From Planctomycetota bacterium (lineage in GTDB: Bacteria > Planctomycetota > Planctomycetia > Planctomycetales > Planctomycetaceae), in NCBI GenBank assembly GCA_030836185.1, contig JAURQH010000021.1, forward strand, positions 62,001 to 126,000: a stretch of DNA of 64,000 nt. The letters are read 5' to 3'. The stretch's first letter is position 1, and each line of letters begins with the position of its first letter. The translations under genes and the position numbers were made by a program. Below, piece by piece: positions 42,294-52,034 of the stretch. The notes below the pieces were generated by a model. That model did no database searches, was not told where the DNA came from, and was given only the letters and a program-made list of their open reading frames with translations.

Positions 42294-43297
42294 GCTGTTC
42301 CTCTTTTCGTCTTCAAAAGGAACAGAAAGAACGGACCGCCGAGCATCGCGGTCATAATTCCCACGGGGAGTTCGGAATTTCCCATGATGGTGCGGGCCAA
42401 ATCATCGGCAATCAATAGCAACATGGCACCCAGCAATGCACTGGCAGGAATGAGATAGGCATGTCGTGCCCCCACCAAACGTCGAGCAATATGTGGACAT
42501 ATTAAACCGACAAATCCAATAATCCCTGCTGCTGACACCGCAGCCGCAGTCAGCAAACTGCCCGCAGAAAGAACCAGCGCGAGGAACTTTTTTCGACCGA
42601 GGCCAAGAGTCGCAGCCGTTTCTTCCCCAAAGGCGAGCGCATCGAGAGAACGTGATAATAACCACATCATGACCAGTCCTACGGCAATCAATGGAGTGAC
42701 GGCTTGTAACTCGGCCCAGCTTCGCCCTGAGAGAGACCCCATCAACCAACCAAAAATCACAAAGAGCTTTTCGCTGTTAACAATCATCAATAACGAAACG
42801 CACGCCGACAGAAAAGTGCTCAGCGCGACGCCAGCCAGAAGAAGCGAGACCATTGGGGTTTCGCGATTTCGGCCTGCCAAGATGAACACACAAAGAACCG
42901 CTAACAGAGATCCTATAAACGCCGCTAGCGACATCGCACTGAAACCAAATAGAGTTGTCTGAACTCCCATCACAATCACCAACGCAACTCCGAAAGCGGC
43001 TCCACTGGCAGAACCAATCACGAATGGATCTGCCAACGGATTGCGAAAGAGTCCTTGATAACCGGCTCCCGCAACGCCGAGTGCCGCACCGGTCAGACAA
43101 GCTAACAAAATTCGTGGTAATCTTAGCTTCCACAGAATGGTGGCATGGGAAGAAAATATTTGACCCGACGAGATTTCCTGCCACGTCTCGGGAAATTGTG
43201 ACAGCGATACCGTCACCGAGCCAACCATCACGCTAATGGCAATGGTGACGAGGAGAATCCCCGACAGCCCACCGAGAATGAGGACTTTACGATTCAC
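42290..43297 (-). CDS. btuC: Corrinoid ABC transporter permease (BtuC/FecCD family)
   Basis: This 335-residue permease of the FecCD family forms the channel of the vitamin B12 importer. It has about ten hydrophobic helices and the family segments LWKLRLPRILLACLTGAALG, GYQGLFRNPLADPFVIG and FVGLICPHIARRLVGA, the last being the coupling region for the ATPase. The open frame continues to 43471, but GTG 43297 is chosen: it forms a GTGA overlap with the btuF stop and is immediately followed by the first helix (VLILGGLSGILLVTIAISV). Confidence 0.92.
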   Translation of the reverse strand: MNRKVLILGGLSGILLVTIAISVMVGSVTVSLSQFPETWQEISSGQIFSSHATILWKLRLPRILLACLTGAALGVAGAGYQGLFRNPLADPFVIGSASGAAFGVALVIVMGVQTTLFGFSAMSLAAFIGSLLAVLCVFILAGRNRETPMVSLLLAGVALSTFLSACVSLLMIVNSEKLFVIFGWLMGSLSGRSWAELQAVTPLIAVGLVMMWLLSRSLDALAFGEETAATLGLGRKKFLALVLSAGSLLTAAAVSAAGIIGFVGLICPHIARRLVGARHAYLIPASALLGAMLLLIADDLARTIMGNSELPVGIMTAMLGGPFFLFLLKTKRGTA

Positions 43298-44391
43298 TCC
43301 GATTCGCCTTTCGGTGGGTTCGCCTTTGTTCGGTTTGGACCGAACTGTTCGGGATACATCAATCCAACCATGGTTTCTAATGTGTCCACCATTCGTGGAC
43401 CACGTCGAGAGACCTGATCTCCGTCGAGAAGAAAAATCTGTTTCTTGCGAGAAGCCGTGATGCCTTCCCAACCGGATTGTTGGGCAATTTTTTCAGGAAC
43501 GACTTCCTGACTGTGAGTGGTCGGTGCAAAAATGACATCGGGATTCCGTGCAACCACGATTTCATGAGCCACATACGGGTAAGGATCTTCCACATCATGC
43601 AGGATATTGCTCCCCCCTGTGAGATCGAGAATTTCTCCGATGAAAGAACTCGGCCCGGCTCCCATCAATGGTTCGTCCCAAACCTGATAAAACAGTTTCG
43701 GACGTTGGTCGGCAGGAATGTTGGAAACTTTTTCGGTGACGTTTTTCACACGATTTTGTAATGACGAAATAACCTTGCTGGCAGATTCTGGACGATTCAG
43801 AAGTCGTGCCAACATTTTCATCTCGTGATACATTTCTTCCAGAGATTCCGCCCCCAAGACTAACACCGGAATCTGAAGTTCTTCCCAGGTGGACATTAAA
43901 GATTCATGCATCGAATTAGAGCAGAGAATCAAATCGGGGTTGAGGGCGACAATTTTTTCTTGGTCAATTGTCTGCGAAGTGACTCCGCCGATTTTAGGCA
44001 AATCGAGTGCCGCAGCGGGGTAGTTACAAAAGGTCGTTGTGCCGACCAACCGGCTTCCCAATCCCAAGGCATACACCAGTTCGGTGTTTTTGGGAGCCAC
44101 TGAAATGACTCGTGTAGGGGGCGTGTCGAAAGTGACTTTGCGGTCAAGCGCATCAGTCAACGTGAGAGGATATCCAACGGTCTGCTCGCCTCCATCTGAG
44201 ACAGTCTGCACATCGGGAAGCTTACTGTCGGCAATACAACCCGACAGAAATACGCACAAAAGCAACAGATATTTGACGATGTAGGGTCCGCTGTGCGGAC
44301 CGTCTACCAGGAAATGTGGAACTGCACGATAGTTCGCACAGCGGACCCTACGCCTTTTATTCATCTTCGACCTTGAAGGATTATTCTTCAT
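43294..44391 (-). CDS. btuF: Corrinoid-binding periplasmic lipoprotein (BtuF-like), with repeat insertion in its leader
   Basis: This 365-residue solute-binding protein has the BtuF/FepB fold: VISVAPKNTELVYALGLGSR, IVALNPDLILC, LFYQVWDEPLMGAG and DVIFAPTTHS. It is a lipoprotein, since KYLLLLCVFLSGC is a normal lipid-attachment signal. However, ATG 44391 (ATGA overlap with cobU) leaves about 40 residues before that core. Most of them are encoded by a 71-nt palindromic repeat (44281-44351) inserted in frame between MNKRR and IVKYLLLL. Without it, MNKRR plus the hydrophobic core would be an ordinary signal peptide. Whether the long leader still works, or a later start is used, is open. Confidence 0.88.
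   Translation of the reverse strand: MKNNPSRSKMNKRRRVRCANYRAVPHFLVDGPHSGPYIVKYLLLLCVFLSGCIADSKLPDVQTVSDGGEQTVGYPLTLTDALDRKVTFDTPPTRVISVAPKNTELVYALGLGSRLVGTTTFCNYPAAALDLPKIGGVTSQTIDQEKIVALNPDLILCSNSMHESLMSTWEELQIPVLVLGAESLEEMYHEMKMLARLLNRPESASKVISSLQNRVKNVTEKVSNIPADQRPKLFYQVWDEPLMGAGPSSFIGEILDLTGGSNILHDVEDPYPYVAHEIVVARNPDVIFAPTTHSQEVVPEKIAQQSGWEGITASRKKQIFLLDGDQVSRRGPRMVDTLETMVGLMYPEQFGPNRTKANPPKGESE
44281..44351 (-). repeat. Palindromic GTAGGG repeat inside the btuF leader
   Basis: Two 21-nt arms (44281-44301 beginning GTAGGGTCCGCTGTGCGG, and 44331-44351 its near-perfect inverse) flank a 29-nt centre. The whole element is translated without a stop as part of btuF; the arm downstream of the centre gives GPHSGPY. 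One arm occurs again at 45591-45611, and elements with the same GTAGGG/CCCTAC ends lie at 47512-47575. Confidence 0.9.
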
Positions 44392-44975
44392 GGCTGGCAC
44401 TCTTTCACACACTCATCGAGTGATTGTGAGATCGATTTCAAGTTGACCGTGCTTCCAGCCACTCGCCAATAGGTTTGTGACGCGGCAGCAACCAGTGTTT
44501 GGTTGGCCCAACCGTGAAGATCCCGAAATTGTCGGCCTAACAACGACTCGGGAACGACCCCCATGCCAACTTCTCCCGCGACAACCAGGCAGGTGACGTT
44601 CGACTGTTTGACGACGTTCATAAAGTCAGAGATCTCTTGGCGCATTTGCCGTTCGATTTCGGCGAAAGGTGTACTGTCTCCCGCATCGAGCAAAATATTA
44701 CTGACCCAGATCGTCAAACAATCGAGCAAAATGACTCGTGGCGCGGGCGAGATGTCCGGGATGACCTTGGCAAGTTCTCGGCGTGATTCGATTGTGCTCC
44801 AAGAGGAGGGACGACTCGCCTGATGACGGGCAATCCGGTCAGACATTTCCTCATCGCAGCTTTCTGCGGTTGCCAGATAAACAACGTCGTCGTCACCCAG
44901 TTTTTGGGCGAGCGCTTCGGCGAATGAGCTTTTTCCGCTGCGAACACCTCCGAGGATCATCACCAACTGTCCCAT
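44388..44975 (-). CDS. cobU: Adenosylcobinamide kinase / GTP:adenosylcobinamide-phosphate guanylyltransferase
   Basis: CobU (CobP) phosphorylates adenosylcobinamide and transfers GMP to it, giving AdoCbi-GDP for the nucleotide-loop step. At 195 residues it has the family length. The P-loop is GGVRSGKSSFAEALA, the second nucleotide motif is LLDCLTIWVSNIL, and the C-terminal VAGEVGMGVVPESLLGRQFRD is diagnostic. ATG 44975 has GGGAGG upstream and lies one base after the cobC stop. The end overlaps btuF as ATGA. Confidence 0.93.
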   Translation of the reverse strand: MGQLVMILGGVRSGKSSFAEALAQKLGDDDVVYLATAESCDEEMSDRIARHQASRPSSWSTIESRRELAKVIPDISPAPRVILLDCLTIWVSNILLDAGDSTPFAEIERQMRQEISDFMNVVKQSNVTCLVVAGEVGMGVVPESLLGRQFRDLHGWANQTLVAAASQTYWRVAGSTVNLKSISQSLDECVKECQP

Positions 44976-44976
44976 C

Positions 44977-45639
44977 TCACGACCTCCCTGATTGTAAAGC
45001 GAGTGACATGTGATCAAGGTTCACCGGAGGTAACGGACGCACTTCTCCATGTGCGGGAATCTGTTCCAGCCATTCGTGGATCGATAACTGATTAGCCAAG
45101 CCTGTTAAAGCGGCGATGACTCCTCCGTGACACACGACGACAGTTCGTTCCGGTTGATGGATCTTTTCACATGCCGTGGCAACACGTTCGACAAATTCAC
45201 GTGTCGTTTCACTTCCACCGGGACGATACTTGTTTGGTTCGGTAACCATTTTCATCATGTCGTCACCATGCTCGGCATAGATATCGTCCCAGGCTGTGAG
45301 TTCCCAATCGCCAAAATTTCGTTGGCTCAAACCTTGGCATTCTTCCAAATCGAGTCCGGTCAACTTTGCTAAATGCTCGGCTAGAATTCGTGCACGACTC
45401 AAACCAGAATGAACAATACGATCAACTGATAGACTGGCTAACGACTCAGCCACTTCAATCGCGTGTTGTCCTCCTGCGGGAGATAGCTCAACATCAGTTG
45501 CGCCGTAGCAGACATTTTGATGTTGCTCCGCAACGGCAGTGTGTCGAACAAAGAGAATTTCTGAAGCATCCCGTTGATTGTCGTTTTTTTGTAGGGTCCG
45601 CTGTGCGGACCGTTCTCCCTGAGCGTTGATTTCATTCAT
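44977..45639 (-). CDS. cobC: Histidine phosphatase family protein, CobC-like alpha-ribazole phosphatase
   Basis: This 220-residue phosphatase removes the 5'-phosphate of alpha-ribazole phosphate or adenosylcobalamin 5'-phosphate, completing nucleotide-loop assembly. The catalytic core is present: FVRHTAV (nucleophile His), HSGLSRARILAEHLA, NFGDWE and VVVCHGGVIAAL. Before it are about 30 odd residues, including RSAQRTL, encoded by a copy of the btuF palindrome arm, and a run of seven A bases. ATG 45639 overlaps the cobS stop as ATGA. The open frame continues to 45708 without support. Confidence 0.88.
   Translation of the reverse strand: MNEINAQGERSAQRTLQKNDNQRDASEILFVRHTAVAEQHQNVCYGATDVELSPAGGQHAIEVAESLASLSVDRIVHSGLSRARILAEHLAKLTGLDLEECQGLSQRNFGDWELTAWDDIYAEHGDDMMKMVTEPNKYRPGGSETTREFVERVATACEKIHQPERTVVVCHGGVIAALTGLANQLSIHEWLEQIPAHGEVRPLPPVNLDHMSLALQSGRS
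45591..45611 (-). repeat. Single arm of the GTAGGG palindrome inside the cobC 5' end
   Basis: The 21 bases are identical to the arm 44281-44301. Here they are translated in another frame, as RSAQRTL. A T7 tract (45584-45590) touches it on the plus strand. The full palindrome is not present. Confidence 0.85.
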
Positions 45640-46460
45640 ACCGGCCACCTCATGATGGACGCCAGCAAGATCACTAATTGACCAAGATAACCGACACTGC
45701 CGAGACAATCACCCGTGATGCCACGCAGTTTTATGAGCACGAGTCCACGAAACCAGATAACCAAGATCGTAAGACCAACAATCCCTGCAAGCGCCTGCCA
45801 GGGTTGAAGATACATCCACAATACGAACACCGGAACCATCCAGACGCTGCCGATGAAAACATCCTTGAGAGTCATTCGCTGACCGACATCACGAGAGAGC
45901 GATTCCCGTTGTTCAATGGGTGGAACCAGCCACATCACGACAAGGATGACCCAGCGTCCGATCACTCCCGAGGCTATCAGTACAACGGCCCAATGAAGTA
46001 ATTCGTTGGGATCAATCACATTCAAAAGATGAATGGTGGCTCCTGTCCGAATGGCAACTGCCGAGACGAGACCCAATACGCCGTAGGTACCGAGACGGCT
46101 GTCCTTCATGATTTCCAAAACTCGTTCGCGAGTCCATCCCCCTCCGAAGGCATCACAACAATCGGCCACCGCATCTTCGTGCATTGCTCCGGTGAGTCGA
46201 AGTTCGAGGGTCAACGAGACCATCACTGCTAACCATATTAGCCAGACGAGAGAAGTCGACCAAATGAGCCCAACGGTGATGACAGAAATCATTCCTCCCA
46301 CCAAAGGAAAATAACGTGGACAATCACGGAGAGATTGTGCATCAGCCGCGCGAGAAGAAATTGGCACGCGGGTTAAAAATTGAATCGCCGTGATGAATGC
46401 CCACCACTGTTGTTTGAAAATATTCGTCGAGGAAGTGACCGTAGAAACAGAAGCCGTCAT
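45636..46460 (-). CDS. cobS: Adenosylcobinamide-GDP ribazoletransferase (cobalamin synthase) CobS
   Basis: CobS is an integral membrane enzyme that joins AdoCbi-GDP with alpha-ribazole (phosphate) to complete adenosylcobalamin. It is 274 residues, close to the family length, with several hydrophobic helices. The metal-binding motif is in HEDAVADCCDAFGGGWTRER, followed by ImKDSRLGTYGVLGLV, a family hallmark. ATG 46460 overlaps the cobT stop as ATGA, and the end overlaps cobC. It does not need CbiB itself but depends on that product being made elsewhere. Confidence 0.93.
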   Translation of the reverse strand: MTASVSTVTSSTNIFKQQWWAFITAIQFLTRVPISSRAADAQSLRDCPRYFPLVGGMISVITVGLIWSTSLVWLIWLAVMVSLTLELRLTGAMHEDAVADCCDAFGGGWTRERVLEIMKDSRLGTYGVLGLVSAVAIRTGATIHLLNVIDPNELLHWAVVLIASGVIGRWVILVVMWLVPPIEQRESLSRDVGQRMTLKDVFIGSVWMVPVFVLWMYLQPWQALAGIVGLTILVIWFRGLVLIKLRGITGDCLGSVGYLGQLVILLASIMRWPV

Positions 46461-47511: not shown

Positions 47512-47575
47512 GTAGGGCCGGTTTCACCGGCCTGAATGATCTCTGGTTTTTGATGGCCGGTGGAACCGGCCCTAC
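47512..47575. repeat. Palindromic GTAGGG repeat upstream of cobT
   Basis: The arms 47512-47532 (GTAGGGCCGGTTTCACCGG...) and 47555-47575 pair with one mismatch around a 22-nt centre. The ends GTAGGG and CCCTAC are those of the btuF element, but the inner arm sequence differs. It occupies most of the cobO-cobT gap, about 26 nt before the cobT ATG. Confidence 0.85.
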
Positions 47576-51660: not shown

Positions 51661-51825
51661 GGCAATTTCCTCGTTGCGATTGTTGACCGAAGATCACTTC
51701 GATCGGAAAGAGACGCACGAAGAAAACAGGTCGTTATTAAGCGTCGCGCAGAGAACAACGAAGATTCGCTATTGCGCACAGCCTGATTGCGATCCACTTC
51801 CGTCGAGTGATCTCTTCACTAAAAC
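51661..51825 (-). other. Leader between riboswitch and first operon gene
   Basis: About 165 nt of untranslated leader. Directly after the riboswitch, GTGATC (near 51829) can pair with GATCAC about 14 nt downstream, a possible expression platform. There is no clear terminator U-tract. Confidence 0.4.
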
Positions 51826-51996
51826 TGATCACAGGCAGGTCTTCTGGCTCCCGGATCGACCTACTGGCTGCGCCTTCCCGTCATCCTTTGACAGTGGCAG
51901 TGGCAGCGTTCGTCCCCGGTTACAGCGGCGGGACCGCAACGGATTTGCACCGTTTTCCCTATTCTCCGAGAGATGACTTCTCCCCCGGCACCCGTA
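51826..51996 (-). ncRNA. Cobalamin riboswitch
   Basis: Read on the minus strand, the conserved elements occur in the canonical order: AGGGAA, GGTGCAAATCC, GCGGTCCCGCCGCTGTAA, the B12-box core GCCACTG, GGAAGGCG, AGTAGG, and GAGCCAGAAGACCTGCC. This is the RFAM-type AdoCbl/cobalamin riboswitch; I identified it by eye from these motifs. It would repress the operon when cobalamin is bound. Ends are approximate. It precedes the DUF1559 gene by about 165 nt and lies downstream of a good -35 box. Confidence 0.93.
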
Positions 51997-52005
51997 TCGT
52001 CCATG

Positions 52006-52034
52006 ACGTTACACAGCCTGCTTCCGCCTGTCAA
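52006..52034 (-). promoter_or_regulatory. Candidate sigma-70-type promoter of the cobalamin operon
   Basis: On the minus strand a perfect TTGACA (52029-52034) lies 17 bases upstream of TAACGT (52006-52011), a weak -10. The predicted start near 51999 coincides with the 5' end of the riboswitch, which strengthens the call. Confidence 0.5.

Follow-up and report, generated by a model that had tools for sequence, protein, structure and literature searches.

What does one palindromic sequence do inside two genes of a cobalamin operon, where it is read in different frames? The window analyzed here, a 64,000-nt stretch of a planctomycete genome, carries this operon on the minus strand, and a cobalamin riboswitch (51817 to 52010, minus strand; RF00174, 120.6 bits) lies upstream of it. 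The original prediction placed a 71-nt palindrome inside btuF and a further copy of its 21-nt arm inside cobC, and likened both to the palindromic elements of Rickettsia. We reproduced these coordinates and confirmed both genes by Pfam, and then compared the genome with its relatives.

The repeat and its distribution

The arm, GTAGGGTCCGCTGTGCGGACC, is present three times in the window, as exact copies at 44281-44301 and 45591-45611 (both on the plus strand) and with 2 mismatches at 44331-44351 (minus strand), and 100 dinucleotide shuffles of the window gave no match. It consists of a GTAG tail followed by a hairpin with a 7-bp stem (GGTCCGC and GCGGACC) and a 3-nt TGT loop, which falls within the 5 to 13 bp typical of GTAG-type REPs. 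Judged by this architecture, the arm is a GTAG-type REP and the 71-nt palindrome at 44281-44351 is a head-to-head REP dimer, or REPIN, with the GTAG ends pointing outward and a spacer between them. REPs are short mobile hairpin sequences found in the intergenic regions of many bacteria. The predicted fold of the palindrome reaches -44.8 kcal/mol, compared to -23.5 for shuffled sequences, none of which folded as well.

The original prediction proposed searching the genome and its relatives for the arm. In the assembly that contains the window, a draft of 5.16 Mb in 107 contigs that is ca. 98% complete, this search gave 22 matches with up to 3 mismatches, 8 of them exact, and the reversed control pattern gave none under the same threshold. 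As two pairs of matches are 71-nt head-to-head dimers (the one in btuF and another on contig C2), the matches correspond to 20 sites; G002, a congener, has further dimers. The copies are dispersed, with about 14 of the 20 sites extragenic or ahead of likely starts and about 6 in coding sequence, of which 2 (in an S9 peptidase and a PSD1-type protein) have possible later starts. The family was present in 25 of the 99 related genomes searched, with more than 100 copies (at most 1 mismatch) in two relatives and up to 124 in one of the relatives. The tallies of gene context leave out G008, a GC-rich relative in which spurious long open reading frames in all frames are indistinguishable from genes.

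We rejected a known regulatory RNA as the identity of the palindrome, as Rfam finds the cobalamin riboswitch alone, 7.5 kb away, and a scan for sigma-70 promoters and terminators found that the REP arms themselves form no site resembling either. The operon also contains a REPIN of a second (sister) GTAG family, GTAGGGCCGGTTYCACCGGCC, at 47512-47575, between cobO and the ATG of cobT. It is missing in both congeners compared with this genome, G001 and G002, and in G001 the cobT ATG directly follows the cobO stop.

Filled and empty sites in btuF and cobC

The gene for a BtuF-like B12 substrate-binding lipoprotein (43294-44391, minus strand; PF01497) begins at an ATG at 44391 that overlaps the stop codon of the upstream gene cobU (44388-45017, minus strand; PF02283) as ATGA. 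Its leader has 52 residues, ending in the LSGC lipobox with Cys52, and the REPIN encodes R14 to Y37 of it (RRVRCAN...GPHSGPY), in agreement with the approximately 24 residues that the element had been said to add to the signal peptide. On the btuF strand, the arm with 2 mismatches is read (R)RVRCAN and the exact arm GPHSGPY, and the 29-nt spacer (44302-44330) lies between them. The cobC gene (alpha-ribazole phosphatase-like; 44977-45639, minus strand; PF00300) is coupled in the same way, with its ATG at 45639 overlapping the stop of cobS (45636-46460, minus strand; PF02654) as ATGA. Its single REP (45591-45611) supplies approximately residues 10 to 17, read RSAQRTLQ; the window reads MNEINAQGERSAQRTLQKNDNQRDASEILFVRH here. 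Both insertions are free of stops and precede the first Pfam-matched residue, as anticipated.

G001 and G002, both draft assemblies, were the congeners available, and a contig scan of further genomes yielded no other congener except one identical to G002. Comparing the N-termini of both genes, as the original prediction also proposed, revealed filled and empty sites. The btuF leader of G001 is 22 residues long and has no palindrome; that of G002 has 52 residues and carries the dimer exactly where the window has it, so neither congener combines a long leader with the lack of a palindrome. In cobC, G002 provides the empty site, reading MNQSTEVLFVRH directly from the ATGA start with the frame kept, and the corresponding position in G001 is occupied by a REP that has decayed (GTAGGGGCCGTTGGTCGGACC, read RSDQRPLQ). 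This difference between G001 and G002 could reflect a loss or a separate event.

The ATGA overlaps of btuF and cobC are conserved in all three congeners. From the REP to the FVRH motif with the catalytic His, cobC has no ATG, GTG, or TTG, and the only such codons between the REP and the lipobox Cys of btuF are TTGs, all of them within the hydrophobic core, where a start would cost the signal peptide. As the starts are conserved and no usable later start exists, read-through is the only ordinary reading, and we infer that both REPs are translated in frame, although a rare start (ATT, CTG, or ATC) 3' of the REP may exist in either gene. We consider it quite unlikely that the REPs are instead effectively 5' untranslated, with annotated N-termini that are too long and hairpins that act solely at the RNA level, by tuning the coupled translation. 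Such a reading would fit the warning of Di Nocera et al. (2013; PMC3733652) that REPs annotated as "intragenic" at an N-terminus mostly reflect misassigned start codons, the great stability of the hairpins, and the family copies found just ahead of likely real starts (L016, L017, L028, L032, and L037), as well as two cases in G087 (L294 and L304) and the cobT REPIN, which also precede likely starts. However, it would leave the overlaps kept in three species to be explained, along with the startless stretch of cobC from the REP to FVRH and the cobC of G002, which has the empty site and reads on from the very same start, and it cannot apply to comB (described below), which is interrupted internally.

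Coding copies elsewhere, frame use, and the transposase

In comB (2-phosphosulfolactate phosphatase, PF04029), an exact REP lies mid-gene and in frame (contig C41, locus L012, positions 1501-1521), where it is read VGSAVRT. G002 shares this copy, and G001 and eleven further aligned relatives (twelve in all) are without it, with the G001 protein 12 residues shorter at the REP point. A ketoacyl-synthase gene has a slightly decayed REP in the genome of the window and none in G002. In an S9-family peptidase, a REP-derived signal peptide n-region is in frame in all three congeners (HRSAQRTL, HRSAQRTL, and HRSAPRAL; L031, L310, and L311). Last, the PSD1-type protein begins MVRTAAPT on a REP and has a homologous sequence in G002, with a later TTG start possible. 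Two N-terminal candidates from G087, an NHL protein and an S13 peptidase, were rejected, as in each the REP is followed by an ATG from which a good signal peptide can be read.

Five of the six frames of the arm are stop-free (VGSAVRT, RVRCAD, GPHSGPY, VRTADP, and SAQRTL), and the sixth contains TAG. The two-frame reading first proposed, with GPHSGPY in btuF and RSAQRTL in cobC, was correct, and the other copies in this genome use three more frames, so that all five are in use, VRTADP solely in the PSD1-type protein and subject to the reservation about its start. One 21-nt palindrome can therefore be read in every stop-free frame. As only one of the six frames contains a stop, any of the other five would be acceptable to a host gene. 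There is also a warning here for annotation, as planctomycete N-termini with RSAQRTL, GPHSGPY, or VRTADPT may be REP-derived.

A RAYT partner could be identified in relatives. G002 codes for a RAYT of 187 amino acids that matches the NF047646 model for REP-associated tyrosine transposases (186.9 bits, cutoff of 80) and is flanked by the same REP, as a dimer on the upstream side and as a copy with one mismatch 13 bp past the stop. G088, which is from a different family, has a related RAYT in three copies bracketed by exact REPs in inverted orientation; one copy is frame-broken, and the other two, both intact, share 56% identity with the G002 RAYT. RAYTs are usually single-copy. The inverted REPs around the G088 copies (L071, L131, and L132) are spaced 613 to 634 bp apart, and this RAYT looks as if it moves itself like an insertion sequence. 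The genome of the window has RAYTs of the same subfamily, with other REPs or none recognizable at their flanks and one located at a contig end. Those with recognizable flanking repeats carry other GTAG hairpins (GTAGGGCAGGGGCCTCCCTGCC, GTAGGGCCGGTTYCACCGGCC, and GTAGGCTGGGACTCGTCCCAGC). Paralogs of one subfamily (L146, L147, and L149) each have a different hairpin beside them, suggesting that transposase and REP diverged together. The RAYT cognate to the REP studied here was not found among the 107 contigs of this draft, so its copies in this genome are probably relics, with the ca. 98% completeness leaving room for doubt.

With these data, we consider it very probable that the elements are REP/REPIN insertions dispersed by a cognate RAYT and kept in frame in tolerant coding regions, with one spacer flipped later. 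The RAYT, an HUH/Y1 single-strand transposase, would have dispersed the REPs and apparently been lost since from the genome of the window. Coding copies would persist only where the frame was kept and a tolerant region was hit, such as the signal peptide n-region of btuF, the variable N-terminus of cobC, or a loop of ComB, and the REP-encoded residues would be neutral extras in the protein. It seems unlikely that the REPs were recruited for a function, for example to supply a basic signal peptide n-region or to slow the translation of btuF and cobC within the riboswitch operon. The n-region of the S9 peptidase, in frame in all three congeners, would fit such a role, and so would the btuF dimer, which two species retain and whose arms are perfect in G002. 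Against it, the cobC copy is missing in G002 and decayed in G001, G001 has a btuF without any REP, the REP codons vary freely (Q to P, T to A), and the insertions are spread across unrelated genes. The filled and empty sites indicate that genes which apparently still work can take up a REP in frame and tolerate it, in a phylum that has been little studied for such insertions.

The btuF spacer and comparison with known systems

The palindrome appears to have gone on producing change after its insertion. When the btuF dimers of this genome and G002 (L041) are compared, flanks and arms align directly, and the 29-nt spacer matches at only 9 of 29 positions. Reverse-complemented, it matches at 26 of 29, and the maximum reached by 100,000 shuffles was 20. 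The spacer is open in both orientations with the frame kept, read NYRAVPHFLVD in the window and DRLPGNVELHS in G002, so that about 10 codons changed at once. Both dimers are 71 nt long and abut the same flanks (AATAAAAGGC / ATCGTCAAAT), which makes an in-place inversion within the coding sequence, in one congener lineage, the simplest account of the alignment. Two independent insertions in opposite orientations are improbable. A symmetric dimer would be able to insert either way round, but the identical abutting nucleotides and the equal length in both genomes argue against two events, as does the spacer itself, which is common to these two dimers and absent from all the others read.

The inverted arms would turn the element into a mutation hotspot, with a template switch across the hairpin as the most likely cause of the flip. 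Such switches between the arms of an inverted repeat are a known source of spacer inversions, which have also been described within yeast coding genes (PMC8604942). Our limited literature search found no report of a spacer inversion in a REPIN, although a search of this scope says little about absence. The other orthologous dimer (C2 in this genome, C200 in G002) has kept its spacer orientation, so a general inversion bias is unsupported by the comparison, which rests on two orthologous dimers in all. We regard as highly improbable the more far-reaching idea that intragenic REPINs are invertible coding cassettes, in which the btuF spacer would flip repeatedly, perhaps aided by a RAYT, to give two alternative leader peptides within populations; each species assembly has a single orientation. 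If it were true, mobile hairpins would be a recurrent source of in-frame protein variation.

The resemblance to Rickettsia that was first suggested holds in part. As in the Rickettsia palindromic elements, palindromes are inserted in frame into many unrelated protein genes (here btuF, cobC, comB, and a ketoacyl-synthase gene). The family is a different one, as the intragenic RPE-4 and RPE-6 of R. conorii belong to the CGTC superfamily, without a dedicated transposase (PMC3733652), whereas the arm described here has a GTAG tag and its REP/REPIN family a RAYT partner. The way of working is therefore similar, and the assignment to the RPE type does not stand.

The closest match is with the GTAG REPs of Di Nocera et al. 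(PMC3733652), who described 24 families, reported REPs within genes of many species and GTAG-type REPs among planctomycetes, and named R. baltica as host of several REP families. The GTAG tail with a short hairpin, the head-to-head dimers, the association with RAYTs, the copies inside open reading frames, and the planctomycete hosts are all shared, and our placement rests on these features, not on a match of the arm sequence to one of their families. REPIN/RAYT systems (Bertels and Rainey 2011, PMC3116915; PMC8266576) likewise have REP doublet hairpins with a spacer and a flanking single-strand transposase gene. In P. fluorescens SBW25, however, REPs are almost all extragenic, with 14 of 1,067 16-mers overlapping genes, compared to about 6 of 20 sites in coding sequence here. 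The spacer flipped between inverted repeats within a protein-coding gene resembles the yeast template-switch inversions (PMC8604942), with the differences that the host is a bacterium and that a mobile element supplies the arms. REPs inside genes, REPs in planctomycetes, and spacer inversions by template switching have thus each been described before. What this case adds is clean comparative evidence from empty sites in congeners, a single genome that uses all five open frames of the arm, and one spacer inversion inside a gene.
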